Assembly: GCF_033115175.1 (NCBI RefSeq)
Contig: NC_084840.1
Location: 77,515,179-77,579,178, forward strand
Direction: 5' to 3'
Length of the DNA stretch: 64,000 nucleotides
Origin: Lepus europaeus
Taxonomy: Eukaryota; Chordata; Mammalia; Lagomorpha; Leporidae
Shown here piece after piece: positions 6,148 to 63,465 of this stretch (the first letter of the stretch is position 1; every line of letters starts with the position of its first letter). A program made the position numbers and the translations under genes. The notes below the pieces were generated by a model. The model did not search any database. It was not told the origin of the DNA and saw only the letters and a list, made by a program, of their open reading frames with translations.

Positions 6148-6149
6148 AA

Positions 6150-7566
6150 ATTTATATTTATTAAATGAAAGTTTTCTAAAAAAGAAAGAAAAGAAAATAT
6201 GCCTAGGAGAAAAGAATAAGAGAGTCAGAGTCGCTGAGAGATCCTCTGGAGATGCTCTCATTCAACCCAAATCCAGGTTCAGCCCAAATTCCACTGCCTT
6301 CTAGTTGGGTATGATATAAGCAAACCTTCTGCAAACACTGGGACCTGGCCATGTGTCTGCTTCTTACTGCAATGAGTATTCAAATCTCTTTTCTGACAGC
6401 AGTCCCATAGGCTCAGTGAACTATCACCTCACATACAGAGTGTGAAATTGCAATAGTAATGCTATTATGCCCATGACACCAACTAGAACAAGTGTCAGAT
6501 GAACAGAAATAGAAGTATACTTTATAAATTGTGAAAATGCAGTGGGAGGGAAAATAAAAGACAGAACCTACCATAAGATCTATGCTGTGGCCACAAGCGC
6601 ATGTCACCCAACTTTCCTCAGGCTACAAAACCTATCTCTTCATGCACTTGTCCAAGTAACTTGGGCCCTCCAGTTCCACAAGGCCCAAGGTCCAATGAGC
6701 TATTTCAGGGAAATGTCTTACAGGAACTACTGAGCAACACTTTTTATTATTCTACTGCATTCCTGCCCCATAAAACACGAATGTCCTTCCCTAAGCTATA
6801 GATCTTAATGGAAAAAAATGACATTAATTCCATCAGCTCTTGTTGAGGTGAAGTCACGTTGGGTTCCAAAAAGAATAAAGAAGCTAATCATTTCTAGTAC
6901 TCTCAAGAGATTCACTTTTCACTCAATTGTATGATTTCTCAAACTAATAATCCCTATGACAAAGCTCTTTGTTAGTGCTTCATGTAGCTTCACTTTTCAC
7001 TTGGGGTTCTCAATAAAATGCTGATTCTGGTTCAGTAGTTCTGGGATAGAAACCTCTAGCAAGTTCTCAGTGACACTGATGTTGCTAGTCCATGGATCAC
7101 ACTGAGTAGCCAGATCTGGAAGTACTCAAACGATCATACTATAGTACTTAGCACCTATATTTCTTGTACAGAGTAGCTATCCAAGAAACATGTGTTGAAG
7201 GGGTAACTGAACTTATGGAAGGTTTCCACCAAAGTAGAATAAGGGGAAAAAAGTCTTTATCAAGACATCTGCCTTTCATCCTACTCATGTTCCACCTTGT
7301 TTTTGGAGTTATGAGATTAGAGTGTTGTTTTGTGAAAGCAAAACCAGTGAAGGATGGTTTACCTTTTGGCCCATGGAGCAAAATGAGAGAACATCAATAG
7401 TTGATGGCCTGTCCATTCTGTCTAAGGATCTGTCTTCCTAGAAAACTGTTTTTCCAACTTACAGGAGCTTACATCCCTATCCCCATCGCCATAACAATTA
7501 TTGGCCGAAATTATAGATTGATGATTGTTTACTCTTTCCAATGTCCACCATTTGAGTACATACACA

Positions 7567-39157: not shown

Positions 39158-39443
39158 AGGGCTGGAGTTGTGGTGTGGTGGGTAGAGCAGCTGTCTGCGA
39201 TGCCGGAGTCAAATGTGGACACTGGTTCATGTCCCAGCTGCTCCACTTCCAATCCAGCTCCCTGTTGATGGCTTGCAAAGGCAGCAGAAGATGACCCAGG
39301 TGCTTGGGCCCCTGGAAACTCCTGATTTGGCCTGAACTAGTCCTGGCCATTGTGGCCATCTGGAAAGTGAACCAGCAGATGGAAGATTCTCTCTCTCTCT
39401 CTCTCTCACTTTCACTCTGACATTCAAATAAATAAATCCTTAA
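39158..39443 (+). repeat. C-SINE, target of the composite L1
   Basis: GGGCTGGAGTTGTGGTGTGG head. The A-rich tail holds the upstream copy of the 14-bp repeat that flanks the composite L1. Confidence 0.88.
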
Positions 39444-39468
39444 GAAAATAAAAAAGAGAGGAGAGCGG

Positions 39469-39480
39469 CAAGATGGCGGA
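39469..39480 (+). promoter_or_regulatory. YY1-like site at the L1 5' end
   Basis: CAAGATGGCGGA lies about 11 nt from the start of the element. Human L1 carries a YY1 site (core AAGATGGC) at the same place, where it sets accurate transcription initiation. Its presence means the copy is essentially not 5'-truncated. Confidence 0.6.
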
Positions 39481-40380
39481 ATAGGAAGGTAGAACACTAT
39501 TAGTCCGGGGGAGAGACACTTTAATAAAAGTGGAGATACTGCAGGGTAAAGGAAGAGTAGGGGAAGAAACAGAAGAGGAAACTCTTCCAGAACTAGTGAT
39601 TCACAGTGGACCTGCGTGGAGAGCGTGGGAGCCCAAGTTCGGGACACCAGCGGCAGACTCAACGCACCAGCGCTGGAACGCGAGGTGAGCCGAACCTCCA
39701 TAGCCCGAGACACCAGCGGGCAAGCAGAAAGAGGAGACTAGAGGGAACGAGGCTTGAAACTCCGTGGGGAAAAGTTCACCAGGCTAACTAGAAGAGAGAG
39801 AGGAAAAAAATAAAAAGTGACCGATACGGACACAAGTTTCTCTCTCTCCGCTCACCTCTCAAAGGCGAGCAAGACAAAGAGCAGGCGCCATTTTGACATA
39901 CGTCATAAGCAGGGTGACCTCAGGTCTGCACCGGCCCTCAGCCTAGCAGAAAAACCTGACTCTGGGGGGAGGGGTGAAATAACAGGAGATTAGCATCTAA
40001 CTTGGCAACCCAGTGGGAGACTGCAGGAAAATTGGAGCCCACACTGAGGGCAGCACAGATTCCCCCCGTGTGGTCCTTGGGAAAGAGCTTCCGATCTTTG
40101 GCTCCTGTGGGTATATCATTTGCCTGCTAACTACCTCCAATTATGTTCAGCTGTGTGGAATTACTTCCCTTTTGAATCAAAAAAAGAAAGAGAGATTTAC
40201 CACACCTAACCTGGGAGTATCATCTTTGACACACCCTCAACCCTGAGGAACCAAACACAGCTCTCAGTCCACACTCATCTCAAGCCTCCAAGGCTCCACC
40301 GAAAGCAGACAGTCCACTTAATATAGAGCCATAGTGTAACAAGAAACAACACCACAGTGAAGAAACCAAATATCTCCAAC

Positions 40381-41416
40381 ATGCCAAACAACAAACGCAA
40401 AAACCGAGCTAACAAGAACAAGGAAGATACTATGATACCCCCAAATGAAAAAGACACCCCAATTCGAGATTATGAAGATGATGAGATAGAAGAAATGCGA
40501 GAAGCGGATCTCAAAAAATTGATAAGATCATTAAGAAGTTCTCAAAACAAATTCTTGAACTACAGAAATCCTTCATGGACAAGATAGAAAATCTCTCTCG
40601 TGAAAATGAAATATTAAGGAGGAATCAAAATGAAATGAAACAACTAGTGGAACAAGAAACTATGATAGTGACAAGAAATCATAATGAAATGAAGAATTCA
40701 ATAGATCAAATGACAAACACATTAGAGAGCCTTAAAAACAGAATGGGCGAAGCAGAAGAGAGAATATCAGACTTAGAAGACAGAGAACAGGAAAGGAAAC
40801 AGGCAAGCCAAAGAAAAGAAGAAGAAATTAGAAATCTAAAAAATATTGTCGGGAATCTACAGGATACTATTAAAAAACCCAACATTCGGGTTCTAGGAGT
40901 TCCTGAAGGCATGGAGAGGGAGAAAGGATTAGAAGGCATTTTCAGTGAGATACTAGCAGAAAATTTCCCAGGTTTGGAGAAGGACAGAGGCATCTTAGTA
41001 CAGGAAGCTTATAGAACCCATAATAAACATGACCAAAAGAGATCCTCACCACGACACATCGTAATCAAACTCACCACAGTGAAACATAAAGAAAAGATCC
41101 TAAAATGTGCAAGAGAGAAATGTCAGATTACTCTCAGAGGATCTCCAATTAGACTCACAGCAGACTTCTCATCAGAAACCCTACAAGCTAGAAGGGAATG
41201 GCGAGACATAGCCCAGGTACTAAGAGAGAAAAACTGCCAGCCCAGAATACTATATCCTGCAAAGCTCTCATTTGTGAATGAAGGTGAAATTAAGACTTTT
41301 CATAGCAAACAGAAACTGAAAGAATTTGTTGCCACTGTCCTGTCCTGCAAAAGATGCTTAAAGATGTGTTACACACAGAAACACAGAAACATGGTCACCA
41401 ATATGAAAGAAGGTAA
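40381..41416 (+). pseudogene. L1 ORF1p, frameshifted
   Basis: ORF1p is the L1 RNA-binding trimeric chaperone. The ATG at 40381 starts MPNNKRKNRANKNK. A one-base loss near 40533 moves the reading into the frame that opens at 40575. From there it encodes a long heptad coiled coil (to about 40860), the RRM start NIRVLGVPEG (40881), and the C-terminal domain with the RREWRDIAQVLREKN block (near 41190-41240). A second shift near 41340 precedes the natural end; in the original frame the stop is TAA at 41414-41416. Total length fits a normal ORF1p of about 340 residues. The two breaks mean no intact protein is made. Confidence 0.88.
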
Positions 41417-41439
41417 AGGAAGGAAACCTCACAGCAAAA

Positions 41440-43150
41440 GATCACAGGAAGCTCAATTTCTCTTTGACATAGAATTAAACTCTGATGCTCTGTTAAAGCA
41501 ATGTGTTAAAGTAATCTATTATGTTCTCTTGATGTCTGTTAAATTCTAATTGTTCAAAAACAGCTGAATTTTTATTAAGAGCTATGGGTTATTTAAATAT
41601 GTGCTTATTTTCAAAGATTTGAATAATCACCTTGTAACAATGATCAAATTTGGTCTGTGTTATGTCATGATTTTAAGGAATCTTATTTCAACCAGATATT
41701 TTGGATTTTGAGCCTTCTTGGCATTCTTGACAGGCATTCAAAAAATCAAAGTTTCAAACAATCTGGTCTCTAAAATTTCCAGTAAATCCTGGACTTTGGT
41801 TTTTCCAGTTTGGGCCCAACTGAAATATCGAAGGACCTATGTCTCTCATCTTATAGAGACACCAACTAATCAGGCTATTTGGATTATATTAGAAGGACTG
41901 TCAAGATGTGATGTGGTACCAAACTTTAAGTTTCTATAATGGAAAATGCTATTAATACAAATGTTTGAGAATTAAAAAGTCTAATGATCTTGTGTTACTA
42001 GACATGATAGTTATCTTAATGAGAAAGCCTCAGAGGCCTAAAGGGTTAAATACTTGTAAAATCCTATAGGTGCTTTCAAAAATACTGTGAAGTAAGCAAG
42101 TGCCTCTTGTTGGTTGATGAGTTTATAATTTTAAACATGGCGACTTAAAGTCTTTTGTCATCCACAGTTATATATGATTTGCTGCTCATAAAACTAAAGT
42201 GTTGTTGGTTCTGTGTTTAGCTGCTCTCCTATAGGTTCCTATGGACTTTTTCCAGCCACTTCTATTGTATTCAGTACTTTGGGATGGCTCTGTAAACAGA
42301 TGAAGCCAATAATGTATTAACAGTACCAACTGAGAGAAAGTATGGTTAACTGAGGTTACTAAAAACAAAAAGCAATTCAAATCAATTGGCAATCTACAAA
42401 AAGAGTTAAAGATTTTAAAAGCTATTATTAAAATTGCTATATTGGTCTATTATGCTATGTTATATGTGTATACATATTGTATGTCCACATGGGGAAATTT
42501 TATTAAGAGTTTTATTTTAAATGGCTTATGGATAAGATTGTCCATAAATTTAAGCTGCTAAAATCAATCAAAGATACATTTTAATTTGTGTGACCTGAAC
42601 CTCTGCATCATATGTTTTAAACTTGTTGGTAGAAAGAAACTAAAAACATTTTATATGGTTGTGCTTAAGTTTACTGGTTAAACAAACTACACCATGTTAG
42701 ATATTTAAGAGTTGTTTTCAAATACATGATTCTTAAAATTTATAGAAGGCATCGGATCTTCTGGTAAATGTTTTCTTAAGTTGTTATCTAATGGTTGAAA
42801 CTGTTTGCTAAGTATTCATGTGATATTGTTATTGTCAGCAAGTGATCTAGGACTTGCTCCCTCATTTCTCTATTCTAAGCCCAACTTCTTTCATTTCTCT
42901 ATTCTCTTCAAGGTAGGAAACTAATTCTATTATGAAGGAATCTGTAGGACGCACAATTTAATCTTTAGACCTTATAAAAGAGATGGCTAACATTTTTCTG
43001 TAATAGCATAGCCAAAATAAGAACTTAAATAATAATCTCATAGCTAGATTCACTTCGCCATCAGCAAAGTATACAGTAAGTAGAAAAAACCTCCCTTTCA
43101 GAACAAAGGGAAAGAAAGTTTTAAAGTGAGAATATAATTTTCCTCATGGG
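41440..43150 (+). other. Unrecognised AT-rich insert inside the composite L1
   Basis: This is about 1.7 kb directly after ORF1. It has no long open frame, none of the ORF2 motifs, and no match to the MIR, L2 or C-SINE patterns. It could be retroviral gag or LTR sequence decayed beyond recognition, or an unusual 3' UTR shared by a rabbit L1 subfamily. Confidence 0.45.
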
Positions 43151-43700
43151 CATTGTCTACCTTAGAAAAACTACTACAGAACATGCCTGTGACTATAGAC
43201 TTGTAGTTCAGGCCACCGAAGATTAGAGATGGGAAACGGGCACTCCCTTGACTTGCTTCCTCTGGTCTCCTTTAACACAAACCAGGAAGAAAAGAAAGCT
43301 TGGCATCAGAAGCAATGGGTGGCAGGCCTATTAATGGCTGATCTGTACAGGGATCTGCCCTCAAGCAGACCCAACAGGCCAGTCCACTGCAGTGGCTTTC
43401 AATGTGGTAAGCATGGGCTTCAGCAGAAGTCAGCTTGTGAAGAGCCCTGGCAGCTCTGCCAAGAGTTGGATCACTGGAAATGGACCTGCCCTGGAGTCGA
43501 AGGATGCCCAGGTCAGAGCCACAGATCTTATTGGCTCTAAGCCGAAAAGCCCTTCACTCAGCCCAGCTTCCAAAGTGACCACTGCAGCTGAGGGGATGGT
43601 CAAGTAGGGTCAGCAACATTGCAGGCAGAACTGTAAATTTCTTGTTAGAGATGCCCCCTGCCTTTACCTGGCCAGCTCTCCTCCCAGGCCAGCCAAGTAA
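43150..43700 (+). pseudogene. Decayed retroviral gag nucleocapsid-protease remnant
   Basis: The frame opening at 43229 encodes a Cys/His stretch with FQCGK followed by DHWKWTCP, the layout of a gammaretrovirus-like (class I ERV) double zinc knuckle. The first finger has lost ligands. About 100 nt further on, in another frame, VSNIAGRTVNFLLEM resembles the strand before the retroviral protease active site, but the catalytic Asp-Thr-Gly is not there. Stops and frame changes make it non-functional. No integrase, RT or envelope was seen. Family placement is tentative. Confidence 0.5.
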
Positions 43701-44214
43701 TGAAAGTCAACAGAGTGCCTTCCCCTAGGAGGTTCACACCTCCCTTAGGATGTACCCCATGTGAAGAGATAGATAGGTCTGGGCCTCTTAACTTACAAGG
43801 CCTAAAGCCCACCAGATTATTATCAAGCCCCTTCTGTCAGGTTCTATTTGCCTCTCAATCAGAAAACTTAATTGTAGCTTAGAAAGCACCTTTCTTAGCT
43901 CCTCTAATAATGACTCTGTCCTTTGTTCTAGACCCTGTCTAGCATACTTGGGCCTCATTCCTTTGTAATCATAACCTCTACTCTACCACCAATGGCTTTA
44001 CTCCCAACCTGTGTGTACTGATGGTCCTCTTCCCCACTTAATGCTGTATAATTGTTCAAACCTGGTAAATGCCACTCTTAGGATCATTGGTTACTATCCT
44101 CACTCTGTCTTTTATGACCTTGTCTAAATATGATCAGAGTCGGCGAACTTGGAAGGCTTCCATAGCCTTGGTAACTCATGACGAGAGCCTAGGGTGGTTA
44201 CTGGTGCCATAAAC

Positions 44215-44560
44215 TAGAGTGTCAATTTGTTGGGTCAACAACAGGAGCCACTGTGCACTTGCTCCTCATGTGGGATCTCTGTCCTTAATATGCTGTACAT
44301 TTTGATTTAATGCTATAACTAGTACTCAAACAGTATGTTTCACTTTGTGTTTCTATGTGGGTGCAAACTGTTGAAATCTTTATACTAAATTGATCTTCTG
44401 TATATAAAGAGAATTGAAAATGAATCTTGATGCAAATGGAAGGGGAGAGGGAGCGGGAGAGGGGAGGGTTGTGGGTGGGAGGGAAGTTATGGGAGGGGGA
44501 AGCCATTGTAATCCATAAGGTGTACACTGGAAATTTATATTCATTAAATAAAAGTTAAAA
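44215..44560 (+). repeat. Lagomorph L1 3' UTR with G-rich tract and poly(A) signal
   Basis: This segment is nearly the same as that at 56640-56946 and, reverse-complemented, as 3543-3900. It holds the shared GGATCTCTGTC and CTTCTGTATATAAAGAG blocks, a G-run tract at 44438-44505, and AATAAA at 44547-44552. The three copies define the 3' end of the local L1 lineage. Confidence 0.85.
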
Positions 44561-44675
44561 AAATATTTAAAAAATGAAAATAAAAAAGAATATCCAGAGA
44601 ACTGTTACAAATGGAGAGTCATGCTTTCCCCTCAATTGTGCTGTGAAGCTGAAATAAGTAAAGCACATTTTATAG

Positions 44676-44870
44676 AATGAGGAGAAGGAAGAAGAGGATT
44701 CAGGAGGAGGAGGAGGAGGGGAGAAGAGGAAGGGGGAGGAGGGGAAGGAAGGAGAGAGTAATGAGGAGGAGAAAGGAAAAAAGAGAGGGAGGGAGGGAAG
44801 GAAGAAAGGGAAAGAGAGGAAAGGAGGGAGGGAGGGAGGGAGGGAGAGGGGGAGGGAGGAAACGATGAGG
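44676..44870. repeat. Polypurine (GGA/GAA)n tract
   Basis: Nearly 190 nt of G and A on the plus strand, with GGAGGA and GGGAGGGA units, just downstream of the composite L1. Confidence 0.9.
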
Positions 44871-45328
44871 TGATGCACAAGCAAGAGGAAAGTGACAGCA
44901 ATGTAGTTTGGGAAATCTCACAAAAGACACAGCTTCGTGTCTCTAGCTGAGGCTTTAGTACCACTACCTTTAGATGTCTATGTGGGCTAAAAGAATTTAC
45001 CTTGTAGAAGGCAAGAGGAAAATGTAGCTGGAAAGCTAAGGCCCTAAGGTAAAGCAGCAGAGGAACGAGGCTCCTGGAGAGCGCCCTCTGTTCAAGAGCA
45101 ACACCTGAGCCCACACCAGCTCATTTGCAATATCTACTTCACCTTAACTCTGAATTATTAATTGGGCTAAACATCATGATTTTTAAAAGTCTTACTAGTG
45201 GTCTTAAACCATTTATAGTCCATTAACAGTTATTTTGTAAACTGTATTCCATTGGTATTTTTTAAATGTTAAATGCTCAGGTCATACCCCTATTGCTCCC
45301 CATATTGCCATTTAACATTTAACTCTTG

Positions 45329-45645
45329 GGGCCTGCATTGTGGCATAGGGGGTAAAGCCACCAGTCTATGAGGCAGGTATTCCATATGGGCGCCAGTTCA
45401 AGTCTTGGCTGTTCCACTTCCAATTCAGCTCCCTGCTAATGGCCTGGGAAAGCAGTAGAAGATGGCCCAAGCATTCGGGTTCCTGCATCCATGTGGAAGA
45501 CCTGGATGAAGCTCTTGGCTCCTGGCTTCTGGCTGGCCCAGCCCTGACCCTAAAAAATAAACATTCCCTCTCTCTCTCTGTCTCTGCCTCTCCCTTTCTG
45601 TAACTCTACCTTTCAAATAAATAAAAATAATTTTTATATAAAAAA
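45329..45645 (+). repeat. C-SINE with small 3' deletion
   Basis: GGGGCCTGCATTGTGGCATAG head; part of the region between CTGGCCCAGCCCTGACC and the CT tract is missing. Confidence 0.88.
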
Positions 45646-46345: not shown

Positions 46346-47290
46346 TCAGGAACTTTGCCCCACTTCCTCATAATCCTTCTCCAGGGCTGCCAAATCTTCC
46401 CTGGCCTCTGAGAATTCTCCTTGTTCCATGCCTTCTTGAATGTACCAGTGCAGAAAGGCCCTCTTGGCATACATGAGGTCAAACTTGTGGTCTAGGCGGG
46501 CCCAGGCCTCCACAATTGCCGTGGTGTTGCTCAGCATGCAGACAGCCCTCCGGAGCTTGGCCAGGTCCCCTCCTGGTATCACCTCTGGTGGATGATTGTT
46601 GACGCCCACCTTGAAACCAGTTGGACACCAATCTACAAACTGAACAGAGTTCCTCGACTTTACAGCTGCAATTGCTGCATTCACATCCTTAGGCACCACA
46701 TCCCCCCTATAGAGCAGGCAGCAGGCCATGTACTTCCCAAGCCGAGGGTTACACTTGACCAGCTGGTTGGAGAGCTCAAAGCAAGCAGCAGTGATGTCTG
46801 ACACGGAGGGCTGCACATGGTAGGTTTTCTCGGCAGAGATGATGGGGGCAAAGGTTGTCATGGGAAAGTGTATTCTTGGATAAGGGACTAGGTTAGTCTG
46901 GAATTCAATTAGGTCCACATTCAAGGGCCCTTCAAACCGAAGAGAAGCAGTAATGGAAGATACCACCTGACCTATCAACCTATTAATGTTGGCATAAGAG
47001 GGGCGTTCAACACCAAGTTTGTGATGGCAGATGTCATAGAGGGCTTCATTGTCCACCATAAAGGCACAGTCCAAGTGCTCTATGGTAGAATGGGTAGTGA
47101 GGATGGAATTGTAGGGCTCTACTATAGCAGTGGAGATCCTGGGAGCTGGATAGACAGCAAACTCCAATTTAGTCTTCCTGCTATATTCTGCTGAAAGCTG
47201 CTCCATTAAGAGAGATGTAAATCCTGATCCAGTGCCTCCTCCAAAGCTTCGGAAAATCAAAAACCCCTGGAGTCCACTGCACTGCTCTGC
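46346..47290 (-). CDS. TUBAL3: Tubulin alpha chain-like 3, exon 4 (C-terminal 314 residues)
   Basis: Alpha-tubulin pairs with beta-tubulin in the microtubule; TUBAL3 is a divergent, restricted-expression paralogue. This exon starts at 47290, after the acceptor TTTCCCCAG (minus strand), with codons Ala-Glu-Gln, and runs in frame to TGA at 46346-46348. It covers residues 133-446. Visible landmarks are the tubulin signature GGGTGSG (149-155), the Glu in LNVDLIEF (E261, equal to canonical E254, which drives hydrolysis of the beta-subunit GTP), and the [14 protein letters not shown] helix. The protein ends DYEEVGQSS, without the acidic tail and terminal Tyr of ordinary alpha-tubulins; TUBAL3 is known for this. 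The frame is unbroken, so it does not look like a pseudogene. Confidence 0.95.
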
Positions 47291-47917
47291 CTGGGGAAAG
47301 TAAACACGATGTGAGAAATCAGACAAATAAATCCAGAGGCAGTGAGCTTGAGGGTAATGGAAGGATACAATTCCTCAAAACAAAAAAAAAAAAAAAAAAT
47401 TGAAGAAAGAACTAGCTTACCACTAACTCCACAGCAAACATAGCTACTTTGAAATATATTTGAGAGGTACTAATTCATAAGAATAATCTAAAACATTTTG
47501 AATCCTGACATGATGCCACACGTGGAAAATTCCAAACTTGACTTCATGTGATGGGTGTAGTCAAAATGCAGACATGCTAAATATATAGTATAAAATTATA
47601 TAAAATTATCTTCAGTCTATGCATACAAGATGTATATAAAACATAAATAAATTTTATGTTTTGATTTGGATTTCATCCCCAAGATATTTCATTTCATATA
47701 TGCGAATATTTCAAAATCTAAGAAAAATCTGAAATCTAAAACATTTATTTTCCCAAGAATATCAGATAAAGTATACTTATACAGCAAAGCATAAAAATTA
47801 AATTTTCACTACCCTCCATGTATTTATCTGGATAAGATCTATAGTAAGGCTTTTATCAACCAAAAGGAAAAAGAAAAAGAAAGAGAAAATGATAAACAAA
47901 ATATTCAAATGGTGCAG

Positions 47918-51640: not shown

Positions 51641-54600
51641 AACCTACTGACACTAACATCCCATGCCCTGGTCAAATCCGTGCTATACTAAGGTGGTAGC
51701 TGGGTAAGAGGTTTGAGTAATCACCTTCCCACAGAGACACGATGTGAACAGCTATACACACACCAAGTTGTCTTCACTGCAGCTATGGAAGCCAAGTGAG
51801 AGAACACAGCACCTTATCTTGTTATAGTCACAAGAAAAGTTAAGAAGGAAAGAGTTGCATATGTCATCCCTCCCCCATCTCCCAAGGAGCATGGCCTAGA
51901 GAGATGCCTCTCACTTAGGAGAACAAGAGCAAACCAAATCCCAGTGCCAGGTCCACTGTGAAAAACAAAATCAGGTTGAGCCTTCTGGCTCCTGCCCACA
52001 AGCCCTTATCCATTCAGTAGTATTTGGTGCCTCCATAACCAGGTGGTATCCACTACCCTCCCCAAACACCAGAGGAAAGCAAAACTCAAGCCTTGCAGAA
52101 ACAGGAAAGGGAAATGAGGACTGTACCTTAGAGCTCAAAACATAGCCTACTACTCTGAGACCCAGCACCTGGTAGAGCCCAAAGGCCTCTACCACCTAGC
52201 CAACACTCACAGATTGAGCCTCTAGACTTACCTGGCATCAGACAGAAACCTGTGCTCCAATGAGTAGGACTCATTTTGGGGTGTGTCACTGCCAGACTTC
52301 AATGGGCCTGGAAGGTGCCCCTGAAATCTTGTGAGGCCCAAGGACAATGGAACCCATGTACACCCAGCCTGGGGCCAATCTGGGCAGCCAGGGAACTGTC
52401 AGCCCAGACAACAAGGAGCCAAAGGACTGTGTCTTAGAAATCAGTGTTGGGCTGGTACAGCCCAACTCTGGGCAAATCTGCCCACTGGGTTTCCATCCCC
52501 AGGCCAGTGCCTGTGGACCATCCTGGACTTGCCCCAATGTCACGTGAGATAGACTTTTTTGGTGTGCAGCACCATTTGTCTTTTGTGGGCCTTGTGTGCA
52601 TCCCTAAGATTTCACAGAACTTGGTGACTGTGAGACCCAGGTGTGATCCTCCTAGTACTTGCCTGAGGAGCTACCTCTCCCATCACCCCACCAACCTTGG
52701 ACACACAGAAAGGAATCATGAGACCGTTTTAGAACTCAATATCAGGTTGATAAAACCCAGCATCAAGAAGATTCTGATGGTTCCTTTCCCTAGGTCAGTG
52801 ACTAGATGGAGTGTTAGAACTTGCTTCAGTGTTCAGTGGAGTTCCATGTTCCTAGCTGAGCAGTCTTGTATCCCAGTCAGATATGTGCAGCATCAGGCAA
52901 TCGACCACCTCATTAGCCAACAGAACATAGCCTACCTCAGCAGCAGATTAGATTACTTAGACATTCTAGAAGGACAGCGACAAATGAAACCAGATTACTA
53001 CAATCCTTCAATGTGCAGACGTCATAGTTCAACAAGCATCAGAAAATTCCAGGGAAACAAAATTTCACCAAAGAAGCTAAATAGGTGCCAGAAACCAACC
53101 ATCTAGGAATGGAAATTTTGAAATGCTCAGAAGAAGATTTCAGAATTGCTGTTTTAAGTAAACTCAATGAAATTCAAGAGAACATAGAGAAATGATCAGC
53201 ATTCTAACAGAGATTTGATAGAGTAGGAAGTAATTAAAGTCAAGCAAAAAACCTTCAACTGAAAAATATACTCAGTGAAATTAAAAAAAAAAAAACATGA
53301 TAGAAGGCATCAGTAGCAGAATAGATAAAAGAGAAGAAATAATCAGTGCACTCAAAGATAGGCTATTCGAAAATACAAAGTTGGAGAAGAAAGAAGAGAA
53401 ATGAAGAAATTGTTGGGAAAATATGAGATAACATGGAAAGAGGAAATATTTGAGTAACTGGGATTTAAGAGGGACTTAAGAACGACAAAGGGATAGAAAA
53501 AATATTCCAGGAGATAACCACAGAAAACTTCCCATACCTACAGAAAACTATAACTAGCCTGGTACAGGAAGGTCAAAGGTCACCCAAGACAACACAACCA
53601 AGTCTACTCCAAGGTATATTACAATCAAACTCTACAAGGTAAAGAGAGGATTCTGGAAGCTGTATGAGAAAAGAAGCAAATAACAAAATGGGGAACCCAA
53701 GTCACCTGACTGCAGACTTCAGAAGTCTTACAGCCCAGAAATTTGTTCCCTTTATATAAAGAAGATAAAATAAAGAGAAAAAAAGAAACCTTATTGTCCA
53801 AGAGGGAGTGGGTTGAGACTTTCACAGTACCAAAAGAAAAACAATCGCCAGCCAAGAATACATGTATCGAGCAATGCTCTTCTTCAGAGGAGAAGATGAA
53901 GAGATTTTGAGCCAAAGAAAAAGTAAAAGAATTTATCATCACAGACCTGATTTTCAAGAAATGCTGAAGGGAATTATTCAAACTGAAAGAGGCTAATAAG
54001 TAAGAAGAAAGTGTCAGAAGGTAGAAAAGTCACTGGTAAGGGTAACTCTAACAACAAATTCAGAATGCTCTAATATTGTAAACATAGTGATGTTAATCAT
54101 TTACATTTCTATCATGAAGATTCTAAAAATTGTAACTACACTAAAATGTTTAGAGACAGGCAAAATGGGAAAAGCTCATATGTAACAGCAAAATTCCAAA
54201 TGCAGGGAGAAATGGAACACAAATGTAGAGTGCCTTATTAGGATTATTCTCCTCAATTTTTGATTGTCTCATTTCCCATTTTTAAAATCGATGTCAAGTT
54301 GTTATCATTTCAAGATATCTTGTTATAAGCAAAAGGAATATTTTGCAAAAATCAAGGTATAACTACAAAACAAAACCTACACATAGGGATACCAAAAACA
54401 ATAACCAGGGACTCAAAGTACACCACTAGAGAAAATCCCTTAACCATGAATGAAGATTGGGACAAAGAAATAAAGGGACTATAATAAAAATACAAAGTAA
54501 GTATCAAAATGGGCATATTAACATCTTACCTGTCAACAATTATCACATTTCAATGGACTAAATTATTGAATTAAAAGACATAGAGTGACCAAATGGATTT

Positions 54601-56639
54601 TTTGAAAACAGGACCCAACTATACACTGACTACAAGAAACTGACGTGACCTGCAAGAACACAGAAAGATTGAAAATGAAAGGATGGAACAAGCTATTCCA
54701 TGCAACTGAGATACAAAAGAAAGCAGGAGTAGCCACAGTTCTATCAGACAAAATGTGTTTTAAATCAAAAGCAGTAAAAAGAGACCAAAAAGGTCATTAT
54801 ACAAAGGGTTCAATCCAGCAAGAGGGAATAATACTTGCAAATATATATGCATGTAGTATTTGAAGCAACCAAATACATAAAACAAATATTAATGGACCTG
54901 AAGAGAGAAATAGACTCCAAGACAATAACAATAGAATACTTTAATACCCTTGTAGAAATGGACAGATCATATCCACAGAAAATCAACAAAGAAACAAGAG
55001 CTGAACTGTGCTCTAGATCCATTGTACCTGAAATCTATAGAACTTTCCATTCTTCTCCACAGTAAATAGGAAATTTTCCAGAATAGATCATAGAGTAGTT
55101 CACAAACAAGTTTCAAAAATTTAAAAAAGTAAAAATCATCTTGAGTATCTTTTCTAACCACAGTGTAGTAAACCTAGAAATCAACAGTGAGAAAAATGTT
55201 ACAAACTACAAAAAGAAGTGGAAATTAAACAACTTACTCCTGAGCAATCAATAGATCAAGGAGGAAGTCTAAAAATTTCTTGGAATGAATTCAGAAACAC
55301 AGCATACCCAAATCAATTGGATACAGCAAAAACAGTACTAAGAGAGAAGTTCATAGCAATCAATGACTGCATTAAAAAAAAAAAAAAAAAAAAAAACATG
55401 ATTTCAAATAAACAACATATGGGTACACCTCAAAGAACGAGAAAAACAAGAATAAATCAAATCAAAAATTGGTAGAAAGAAAGAAATAACAAAACCCAGA
55501 GCACAAATAAATAACATAGATGAAAAGAACACAAAATAATAGTAAAATGAAGTTGTTTCTTTCAATAGATAAACAAAATTGATAAACTCTTATCTAGGCT
55601 CACAGAGGTAAAAAGAGAGACATTTCAAACACACAGAATATGACATGGTAATGGAGATATTAGCATTGACACCACAGAAATACGGAAAAAAATGGACAAA
55701 TTATTGGATATATATACATTATACAAATGGAATCATGAGTAAATAGAATACATAAACAGATCAGTAATTAGTAGTAAGACTGAATCAGCAATAAAAATAC
55801 TACACATCAAACAAAAAAATGGCTTCACTGCTACATTCTACAAAACATTTGAAAAAAGAATTAACACCAATCCTTCTTAAATTATTTCAAAAAAAAAAAA
55901 AAGAGGAGGGAATTCTTCAAAATTCATTCTATGATGCCAGCTATAACTTGATACCAAAACCAGCAAAGATACAACAAAAAAAGAAAGTTGCAGGCCAATA
56001 TCCTTGATGAACACAGATGCAAAAATCTTTACAAAATACTAGCACATAAAAACCAACAGCACGTAAAAAGATCACTCACCATGATCAAGTGAGTTTCAGC
56101 TCAGAGATATAAGAAGGGTTCAACATACACAAATCAATAAATGTAGTAATACCGTATCAAAAGAATGAAGGACAAAAGTCATATGATCACCTCAACAAAT
56201 GCAGAAAAGGCATTTGATAAAATTACTTCATGATTAAAAACTCTGACCAAATTAAGTATACAAAGAACATACCTCAATATAATAAAGACCACAATTAACA
56301 TCATATTGAATAGGGAAATAATCAGACTTTCTAAGAACTGAAACAGCACAAGGATGATCACTTTTATTCAGCATAGTACTGGAGATCCTACCTAGAGCAA
56401 TTAAGCAAGAGAAAGAAATAAAGGGCATTCAAATTAGAAATGAGGAAGTCAAATTGTCACTGCTTCCAGGTGATAATTTTATATATAGAAAACCCCAAAG
56501 ATTTCACCCAAAAAATGTTTAAAGTAATAATTCAGTAAAGTTGCCAGATGTGAAGTAGATGTAAAAAAAAAAATCATTAGAATTGTCAAACACCAGAAGA
56601 AAATCATCTAAATAAAATTAATCAATTTTTAAAAAATAT

Positions 56640-56946
56640 CATGTAGGATCTCTGTCTTTAATGTGCTGTACACTCTTATTTAATGCTATAACTAGTACTC
56701 CAACAGTATTTTTTCACTTTGTGTTGCTATGTGGGGGCAAACTGTCAAAATCTTTACTTAATATATACTAAACTGATCTTCTGTATATAAAGAGAATTGA
56801 AAATGAATCTTGATGTGAATGGAAGGGGAGAGGGAGCGGGAAAGGGAAGGGTTGCAGGTGGGAAGGAAGTTATGGTTGGGGGAAGCCATTGTAATCCATA
56901 AGCTGTACTTTGGAAATTTATATTCATTAAATAAAAGTTTAAAAAA
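56640..56946 (+). mobile_element. 5'-truncated young lagomorph L1 3' end, nested in the old L1
   Basis: About 300 nt match the 3' UTR at 44269-44560, including the CTGTATATAAAGAG block, the G-rich tract and ATTAAATAAAAG. ORF2-like sequence of the old L1 stops just before it and resumes after it. A clear target duplication was not found. Confidence 0.75.
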
Positions 56947-57984
56947 ATCAAGAGAATAATCACATTTCCAATAGTTACCTCCCCCCCAAAAATGCATAAA
57001 ATACCTGGAACAAATTTAACCAGGTTAGTGAAAACTATCTAGAAAGAAAACTATAAATCATTGATGAAAGAAATTGAAGAGGTCACAAAGAAATGGAAAG
57101 ACATTCTGTTTTCATGGATTGAAAAATCACTATCATTAAAATGTGCAAACTACCTAAAGCAATTCACATATTCACTGTAATCCCTACCAAAATACCAATG
57201 ATACTTTTCCCAAAACTAGAAAAGACACCACTAAAATTTGTGTGGAACCACAAAAAAAAAAAAATTGCCAAAGTGATCATGAGCAAAAAGAACAAAGCAG
57301 GAGGCATTATACTACCAGTAACTAAAACAAAGCTACAGTAATTAAAACAGCAAGGTATTGGCATAAAATCATAGACAAACAGAATAAAATAGAGACCCTA
57401 GAAGTAAACCAATACATCTACAGTTAACTGATCTTTGACAAAGGTCCTAAAAACATGCATTGAATAAAAAGTCTTTTTAATAAATGGTGCTAAGAAATTT
57501 GGTTATACACATGCAGAAGAATAACCTAGAGCACTCCCACCTTGTACAAAAATCAATTCAAAATAGATTTTCTGGATCCAACCCCAAAAGCACAGGAAAT
57601 AAAAGCAAAAATTGACAATTGAGTTTCATCAAACTAAAGAGCTTTTGCACAGCCAGGGAAACAATCCACAGAGTGAAGAGACAACCAACAGAATAGGAGA
57701 GTTAATTTATAAGGTAAATGTCTCATAAGGGTTTAATGTCCAGAATATATAAAGAACTCAAACAATGCCAACAGAAAAAAATGCAAACAATCCAATTTTA
57801 AAATGGACAATAGACCTAAAAAGATATTTATCAAAGAAAGACATACAAACGGCCAACAGATACATGAAAAATTCTCAGCATCACTAATCATCAGGTAAAT
57901 CCAAATCAAAACCACAATAAGATAGCTCCTCACTGCAGTAAAATTAGCTATTATCAAAGAGAGAGAGAGAGAGAGAGAGCAAAA

Positions 57985-62165: not shown

Positions 62166-62679
62166 TCTACATTCTTCTCTAGATTTTCTTTTAAGTCAGT
62201 AAGAATCTATATGCTCTCCAGAATTCTCTAGTTTCAAGTTTTTGAACAAGAAATTACAAAGTTCAGCATTAACAATCATAAAGTTGTGATGTTTTCCCCC
62301 ACAATTTGAAGATTTATTTGACTCTTCTTTGAAATCATTTTCAAATAGTCTACAAGTAAAAAATGACAACATTTTAGATTCTTTACCAATGGATTCTAAC
62401 AACTGGCTCTCAAATCCAGGAGATTTAGTGTTTTATTCTGATAAATGTGCAGATAAATTTTAATGGTTTTAACTAGTTTTATCACATAGGGAAACCTAAT
62501 CTTCCCTTTGGATATGTTTGTCTTGCTCATCACTCTAAATTGTCACTGAATGAAGCTTTACAATTGGAAAACTTCCACATGATCATGTACAGGTAGATTA
62601 GCTAGCTCTGATAATCACAAGCACTTGACTTGCTTATTTTGTCTGGGTTAAGTACACTAGAATGCAAAATTTACATTAC

Positions 62680-62923
62680 CTATAACAGTTGGTTCTAAAT
62701 CCATGAAGAGTGCTCTGGGCACATGATTCCCAGCTCTTGTCTCGCAAAAGAAGGTATTAAAAGATGTACTCATATGCTCCATGTTAGCATTTTCCGGCTG
62801 ATGCTGTTTACTGTCAAGAAGGATGCCATCTGGCTGGATTCCATGTTCCAGGCAATAAAGTTCCCAACAAGCGTCCCCAATCTGGATGCCAGCTTGACCA
62901 ATATGAATGGAAAGGCACTCCCT
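62680..62923 (-). CDS. TUBAL3: Tubulin alpha chain-like 3, exon 2
   Basis: This exon is 244 nt long, starts after GGCTTGTTTCAG (minus strand) and ends at ...ACTGTTATAG|GTAATG. It encodes residues 2-82 plus the first base of Asp83: [17 protein letters not shown] at the N-terminal nucleotide-binding strand, [14 protein letters not shown], and [14 protein letters not shown]. The luminal loop after Gly34 is seven residues longer than in canonical alpha-tubulin. A Lys still falls at position 40, the acetylation site of ordinary alpha-tubulins, but in a different context (DSK40QHQ). As in other alpha-tubulin genes, the initiator ATG must come from a separate upstream exon. Confidence 0.94.
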
Positions 62924-63465
62924 CTGAAACAAGCCATTGTAAGTTAGAACCAAACAGGTGTTTTTAAACAACATGAGCAATGTCATTCAGCACCTCTTGT
63001 TACAGATAAAAGAAGTCAAATTAACAATATCACAAAAGAAATTTGTTATAAGGATAATCAAAAGTGTCTCATGGAAACGAAAAACTATCATACAGGTAGC
63101 TCCAGGAACAACTGAACCAAGGACTCAAATCCCACTAAAATGTTTCTTACAACAACAAAAATTATATACCCACTGTGTAGTAGACTAAGAACTGGGTTAA
63201 GCTTATTTATAGTCTCATAATCTGTATAGCAATTTCTATAGATACTTATATAATCTATAAGTATCAGGCTGACTTAACAAGAAAAAAAATAGCTAGTTTT
63301 TGGTAAGGAATAAAACTAAAGTCAATGTATAAAATTGTCACATGTTAAAGCTCATTATAGATAAATTAGAGACATTATCTTTTTCACACCCTGAAATTTT
63401 ATATTTCCTATTATATGTACTCTGAATAAGGAAGGATATTCTAAGCTTAAAAGTAATGGAGTGGG

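Follow-up and report, generated by a model that had tools for sequence, protein, structure and literature searches.

A composite L1 insertion in the genome of Lepus europaeus (39458-44575) consists of an L1 5' end, ORF1, about 2.8 kb devoid of ORF2, an L1-type 3' end and an A-rich tail (Table 1). Positions are those of the window, the whole stretch of 64,000 nucleotides that was analysed. This ORF2-less composite is real and unusual, and the finding is a modest one until copies are counted. The initial annotation had described a perfect 14-bp direct repeat bracketing the element and had taken the whole as the product of one insertion event. The repeat proved to be exact at both ends and rare in chance tests, and the single event is supported by the 5' end, ORF1, the tail and the target-site duplication.

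Table 1. Features of the composite L1 and its flanking duplications (window coordinates)
Feature	Position	Strand	Basis
5' copy of the target-site duplication, GAAAATAAAAAAGA	39444..39457	.	direct-repeat search and chance tests
L1 5' UTR with AAGATGGC (YY1 core) at 39470	39458..40380	+	place before ORF1
L1 ORF1 with recognisable RBD and CTD, frameshifted at least twice	40381..41416	+	domain and protein searches
L1 sequence between the ORF1 stop and the inferred junction	41417..41456	+	match to the C-termini of rabbit proteins P0001 and P0002 in a shifted frame
AT-rich non-coding filler in the expected place of ORF2	41457..43141	+	change-points at 41457 and 43142; no Pfam or PDB relative
GC-richer non-coding segment	43142..44226	+	composition; no second copy in the window
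L1-type 3' UTR end and A-rich tail	44227..44575	+	shared with other L1 tails in the window; motifs
3' copy of the target-site duplication	44576..44589	.	direct-repeat search

Boundaries and L1-derived parts

The left copy of the duplication adjoins the L1 5' end and lies within the A-rich end of a SINE that we take to be a C-type SINE. Since the flanks of the composite are A-rich, the chance occurrence of such a repeat was tested. Of 3000 Markov samples, 45 contained a match of at least 14 nucleotides at any place in the two flanks, and with the left copy fixed next to the element such a match was obtained in 71 of 20000; the window's own A-rich 14-mers recurred within 55 nt after a run of six or more A residues in 28 of 112410 trials. 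No SINE piece was detected between 39441 and 45337, against 54 matched pieces across the window (query included), and no direct-repeat copies were found at the internal junctions of the composite among the 20 of 22 families listed.

Judged from its position upstream of ORF1, the segment 39458-40380 is presumably a rabbit L1 5' UTR. The observed-to-expected CpG ratio reaches 0.45 in 39458-40382, compared to 0.12 and 0.17 in the two 3-kb flanks. The YY1-like site originally noted in it does lie 13 nt from the 5' end of the element; as a motif it is common, and because the two orientations of AAGATGGC together account for 11 occurrences in the window, the core counts only by its place. ORF1 can be followed from its start to its stop, yet its reading frame is interrupted by frameshifts, so that the ORF1 first annotated holds for its domains (RBD, E = 5.8e-25; CTD, E = 7.3e-24) and not for an unbroken frame. 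Thirty-five Oryctolagus proteins in UniRef are 81-89% identical to it. In a tree, it is placed within the rabbit L1 ORF1s, on a terminal branch of 0.06, and this position inside rabbit L1 diversity argues that the composite is no ancient HAL1. In viral contigs, the ORF1 protein pattern brought up 30 stretches, of which none is a relative.

At the other extremity, the assignment as an L1 3' UTR end with its tail was borne out, the last 300-330 nt being common to other L1 tails in the window. One copy (56639-56946) matches 44266-44563 with 88% identity, another, on the minus strand (3899-3568), matches 44227-44554 with 78% identity, and a third, short match is found at 6148-6199 (78% over 55 nt, E = 4e-5). 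The 3' end contains G-rich tracts (44442-44493) and an AATAAA at 44547, and the tail is A-rich with no pure A run. Viral contigs gave no match to L1-tail or filler DNA patterns. When prokaryote contigs were scanned with the L1-tail patterns, a single hit came up, in a Bacteroidota contig, and was rejected as a chance 22-mer, without other significant likeness.

Absence of ORF2 and the sequence in its place

That ORF2 is missing after ORF1 was confirmed with phmmer against PDB. No similarity to L1 ORF2p was detected in the six frames of 41418-44575 (one unrelated match, E = 0.78). As a positive control, an older L1 in the same window (54001-56636) matched human ORF2p in three forward frames, with E-values of 4.3e-40, 7.1e-10 and 4.3e-71. 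Pfam likewise gave no reverse transcriptase or endonuclease in the six frames of 41415-44575 (weak unrelated matches, E = 0.085 and 0.12). It is a weak detector of ORF2, however, as it also missed the old remnant in three forward frames of 55501-57602, and it was given up in favour of phmmer for this reason. The C-terminus of a rabbit protein (P0030) was considered as a shifted-frame ORF2 endonuclease, which would have been evidence for ORF2 behind a sister ORF1, and dropped, its match to the older L1 reaching only E = 0.74. Judged from the phmmer comparisons, the composite does not qualify as an ordinary full-length L1, with the endonuclease and reverse transcriptase of ORF2.

The ORF2-less part begins slightly later than the initial annotation had it, at about 41457, and extends as described to at least 44226. 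The rabbit proteins P0001 and P0002 track L1 likeness up to 41456, which is only a lower bound since both proteins end by 41465. We infer the junction at 41457 from composition, which changes there, 41 nt past the ORF1 stop. This change-point, together with the L1 likeness of P0001 and P0002 up to 41456, indicates that the ORF1 region was left whole.

A second composition change-point, at 43142, suggests that the filler is made of two parts, an AT-rich one of 1.7 kb followed by one of 1.4 kb. Over 41481-43180, the AT-rich part contains A and T in about equal proportions (0.33 and 0.36), in contrast to ORF1 (A 0.43, T 0.19); its CpG ratio of 0.12 is about as low as that of the tail (0.09). The 1.4 kb from 43142 may be an ordinary rabbit L1 3' UTR, with the GC-richer 43142-44226 as its upstream section, and part or all of the filler could be a normal lagomorph L1 3' UTR. 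No other copy of 41457-44226 exists within the 64-kb window. Rabbit proteins reading into the filler were sought with a 103-aa ORF from the GC-richer segment and with an 873-residue string of filler peptides, and neither query matched. Both negatives are weak evidence, since readthrough after stop loss is short, the queries covered parts of the filler, and the comparison took in the 7987 candidates with the most shared words. Comparison of 41400-44590 with phage and plasmid collections yielded short chance matches only (2 and 7 records), and Rfam had no match anywhere in the window at gathering scores.

Possible origins of the composite

The reading that we tentatively prefer, at somewhat short of an even chance, is that of a lagomorph HAL1-like derivative of L1, devoid of ORF2, whose RNA would have been retroposed in one piece by ORF2p acting in trans. 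A transcript from the L1 promoter would carry the 5' UTR, ORF1, some 40 nt past the ORF1 stop, the non-coding filler and a normal L1 3' end. The ORF2p of another L1 would nick the A-rich end of the neighbouring SINE, and target-primed reverse transcription of the composite RNA would leave the 14-bp duplications; ORF1p may come from the composite RNA itself or from elsewhere. The duplications enclose the L1 at its 5' end as well as at its 3' end, and this favours the HAL1-like reading, in which the RNA would stem from an ORF2-less, possibly multi-copy, source L1. So do the lack of ORF2p in six frames next to a control that succeeded in the same window, the ORF1 region left whole, the place of ORF1 within rabbit L1 diversity, and the absence of any internal SINE piece or, in the families listed, of junction repeats such as a later insertion might leave. 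The HAL1-like reading is weakened by the single copy of 41457-44226 in the window, by the lack of relatives of the filler in the protein, phage and plasmid searches, by a junction placed through composition and not through the proteins, by the frameshifts in ORF1, and by the possibility that a long L1 3' UTR is all that the filler represents.

The last point leads to an explanation that we also consider quite possible, though less so: a lagomorph L1 of the usual kind, its 3' UTR (41457-44575) long by nature, that lost ORF2 either in the course of that very retrotransposition, through splicing or template jumping, or by later deletion, with no family behind it. A single deletion would be enough, no second copy was seen in the window, and the shared tail and the similar CpG ratios of tail and filler speak for it. 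On the other hand, a random deletion would have had to start near the ORF1 stop (41 nt from it by the composition fit) and removed all of ORF2. Full-length rabbit L1 is reportedly about 7.5 kb long (Demers et al. 1989). At this length the 3' UTR would take up about 1.7 kb, while a 3' UTR of 3.1 kb would bring the element to about 8.9 kb; 43142-44575 thus fits a normal 3' UTR and the AT-rich part does not. The composition of that part, for which the searches found no relative, would suit a chimera formed once, dead on arrival, when reverse transcription joined an L1 RNA to an AT-rich RNA of unrelated origin. Sequence added by template switching usually lies on the 5' side, against the internal position of the filler, and two switches would be required, into the filler and back to the L1 3' end. 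Such an origin seems improbable, although human L1 insertions chimeric with other RNAs have been documented (PMC13174262). More improbable still is a normal L1 insertion in which a later genomic rearrangement put other DNA in place of ORF2. The CpG ratio of the filler does resemble that of the 3-kb flanks, but nearly 4 kb would have to be deleted and 1.7-2.8 kb inserted, with the left edge of the insertion beside the ORF1 stop, and the internal junctions bear no direct repeats in the families listed.

The HAL1-like reading can be carried further, to a proposal that we regard as rather unlikely: a leporid-specific, non-autonomous L1 lineage that swapped ORF2 for a captured AT-rich sequence of about 1.7 kb, kept the promoter, ORF1 and the L1 3' end, and was amplified by the ORF2p of its parent L1, with the filler perhaps serving spacing, stability or escape from silencing. 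Should the composite belong to a multi-copy family, it would show that a HAL1 arose recently in lagomorphs and would open a direct route to asking why an L1 parasite keeps ORF1 while ORF2p comes in trans, and whether what stands in for ORF2 is of any importance. If it stems from a mere deletion or a one-off event, it is a single-locus curiosity.

Comparison with known retroposed L1 derivatives

The composite resembles rabbit L1 (L1Oc) by its ORF1, 81-89% identical to the 35 Oryctolagus proteins, and differs from it by the lack of ORF2. HAL1 elements (half-L1; Bao and Jurka 2010) are described in PMC5322556 as L1-derived, with ORF1 only, a poly(A) tail and target-site duplications, and as dependent on L1 reverse transcriptase and endonuclease; several independent origins are indicated in PMC5753468. 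Our literature search retrieved nothing on rabbit HAL1. Like HAL1, the composite is L1-derived, has an L1 ORF1 (frameshifted in the present copy), is without ORF2 by phmmer with its positive control, and shows target-site duplications and an A-rich tail, though no pure A run. Unlike HAL1, it carries a non-coding stretch of about 2.8 kb where ORF2 would be and is known here from a single locus; unlike ancient HAL1, its ORF1 falls within recent rabbit L1 diversity. The SpIREs described in PMC5860796 are L1 copies in which an internal gap is likewise found and which were retroposed as one RNA. Splicing has cost them 5' UTR sequence, or 5' UTR and ORF1 sequence, so that L1 splice sites bound the gap, whereas in the composite the gap takes the place of ORF2 and is filled by other sequence; its ORF1 runs from start to stop, unlike in the 5' UTR/ORF1 type. 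Finally, the composite shares with the chimeric L1 insertions of PMC13174262 the association of L1 and other sequence in one insertion; the extra sequence appears to lie 5' of L1 in those insertions and is internal in the composite.

Limits of the element and the flanking repeat

The L1-type element is bracketed by a direct repeat (see table). As the flanks are A-rich on both sides, a chance origin of this repeat was assessed in three ways. A repeat of at least 14 nucleotides arose anywhere in the two flanks in 45 of 3000 Markov samples; when the left copy was required to adjoin the element, the count was 71 of 20000; and A-rich 14-mers of the window recurred at places following runs of six or more A in 28 of 112410 comparisons. 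These tests, and its exact contact with the L1 5' end, make the repeat a very probable target-site duplication, and the composite L1 with a perfect 14-bp flanking repeat proposed in the initial annotation stands.

Features of the element and its neighbours
Feature	Position	Remark
L1-type element	39458-44575	
Direct repeat GAAAATAAAAAAGA	39444-39457 and 44576-44589	exact copies bracketing the element
L1 ORF1	40381-41416	start to end of stop
Purine-rich repeat, long	44684-44862	a short way downstream of the element
C-type SINE	39161-39440	54 matching pieces, itself included, dense across the window; none in 39441-45337
Older L1	53166-57200	ORF1 remnant 53166-53988, ORF2 remnant from about 54519; about 530 bp between the two matches
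Lagomorph L1 tail insertion	56639-56946	interrupts the older L1
Alpha-tubulin-like ORFs (by eye)	46346-47326 and 62657-62986 (minus strand)	candidate gene or retrocopy pieces

ORF1 and the place of ORF2

The expected ORF1 is present, with RBD and CTD domains (E 5.8e-25 and 7.3e-24), though frameshifted: rabbit ORF1 aligns to it by tblastn only across three frames, hence at least two frameshifts, owing to which this copy cannot encode a full ORF1p. The top 35 protein relatives of this ORF1 (from 120 listed of 1740 matches), with identities of 81-89%, are all from Oryctolagus cuniculus, which marks the window as lagomorph DNA. A tree of 40 rows (the element, these 35 proteins and four others), made with the middle part of the element's ORF1, places it amid the rabbit proteins with an end branch of 0.06, and contains no well-supported rabbit subgroup that includes it. 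This position and branch assign the ORF1, by sequence, to recent rabbit L1 diversity and not to an ancient HAL1 (half-L1). No rabbit L1 was found in the viral and prokaryote contigs searched.

That no ORF2 follows ORF1, as first proposed, is borne out. Searched against PDB sequences with a cut-off of E 1, six frames of 41418-44575 gave no match to L1 ORF2p, the sole hit being unrelated (E 0.78), while three forward frames of the older L1 (54001-56636), used as a positive control, matched human ORF2p with E down to 4.3e-71. Pfam found no ORF2 domain in the filler, the non-coding DNA lying where ORF2 is expected, and is uninformative here because it also missed the domain in 55501-57602. The ORF1 of the older L1 aligns with 40605-41381 of the element; its ORF2 part gave only matches of at most 41 nt with the filler (E at least 0.07).

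The filler and its junctions

Two of the 35 rabbit proteins (P0001 and P0002) share the element's shifted frame and continue in it beyond the ORF1 stop. They agree with the element up to the codon ending at 41456, after which three residues differ and the proteins end; their alignments reach 41465, beyond which the rabbit proteins carry no information. Three others (P0007, P0010 and P0018) extend a few residues past the stop in another frame. Judged from these alignments, ordinary L1 likeness extends to at least 41456. When base composition over 41000-42000 was fitted with a single change-point, this fell at 41457, so that on composition the junction likely lies near there, 41 nt past the ORF1 stop; the rabbit L1 sequence used for comparison was that of ORF1. 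A second fit, over 42500-44000, gave 43142.

The AT-rich part of the filler (A 0.33 and T 0.36 in 41481-43180) is set against an ORF1 with A 0.43 and T 0.19. CpG observed/expected in that AT-rich part is 0.12, close to the 0.12 and 0.17 of the flanks and the 0.09 of the L1 tail. No second copy of 41457-44226 occurs within the window, and filler peptides had no match in protein searches. A 103-aa ORF in the GC-richer part (43229-43540), without Pfam or protein match, is probably due to chance.

L1 3' ends typically have G-rich tracts and AATAAA. The element's tail has both, and its last 300-330 nt are repeated at 56639-56946, within the older L1, and at 3899-3568, which upholds the L1-type 3' end; at both sites likeness stops upstream of the tail, as in 5'-truncated copies. 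A third match, of 55 nt, lies at 6148-6199. Demers et al. (1989) reportedly put rabbit L1 at about 7.5 kb. Subtracting the 5' UTR, ORF1 and a 3.8-kb ORF2 from this length would leave a 3' UTR of about 1.7 kb, on which reckoning the foreign part would be 41457-43141, followed by an ordinary 3' UTR in 43142-44575.

Origin and relation to HAL1

Since all L1 parts and the filler lie inside one pair of duplications, insertion from one RNA is the best explanation. A single RNA running from the L1-type 5' end through ORF1 and the filler to the L1 3' end would have been copied by target-primed reverse transcription, leaving one pair of duplications around the whole, with ORF2p supplied by another L1. 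A junction beside the ORF1 stop would be expected had an ORF2-less element persisted with a working ORF1, and would seldom result from random deletion, an argument biased by the locus having been picked in the initial annotation.

The element is real and unusual. In the literature searched, an incomplete set in which earlier publication may have been missed, no description of a rabbit HAL1 was found. PMC5322556 describes HAL1s as ORF1-only, tailed, duplication-flanked and dependent on L1 reverse transcriptase and endonuclease, and PMC5753468 gives them several separate origins. Of the ORF2-less composite first proposed as HAL1-like, the structure is real; membership of HAL1 is unproven, and the element is probably HAL1-like in its working.
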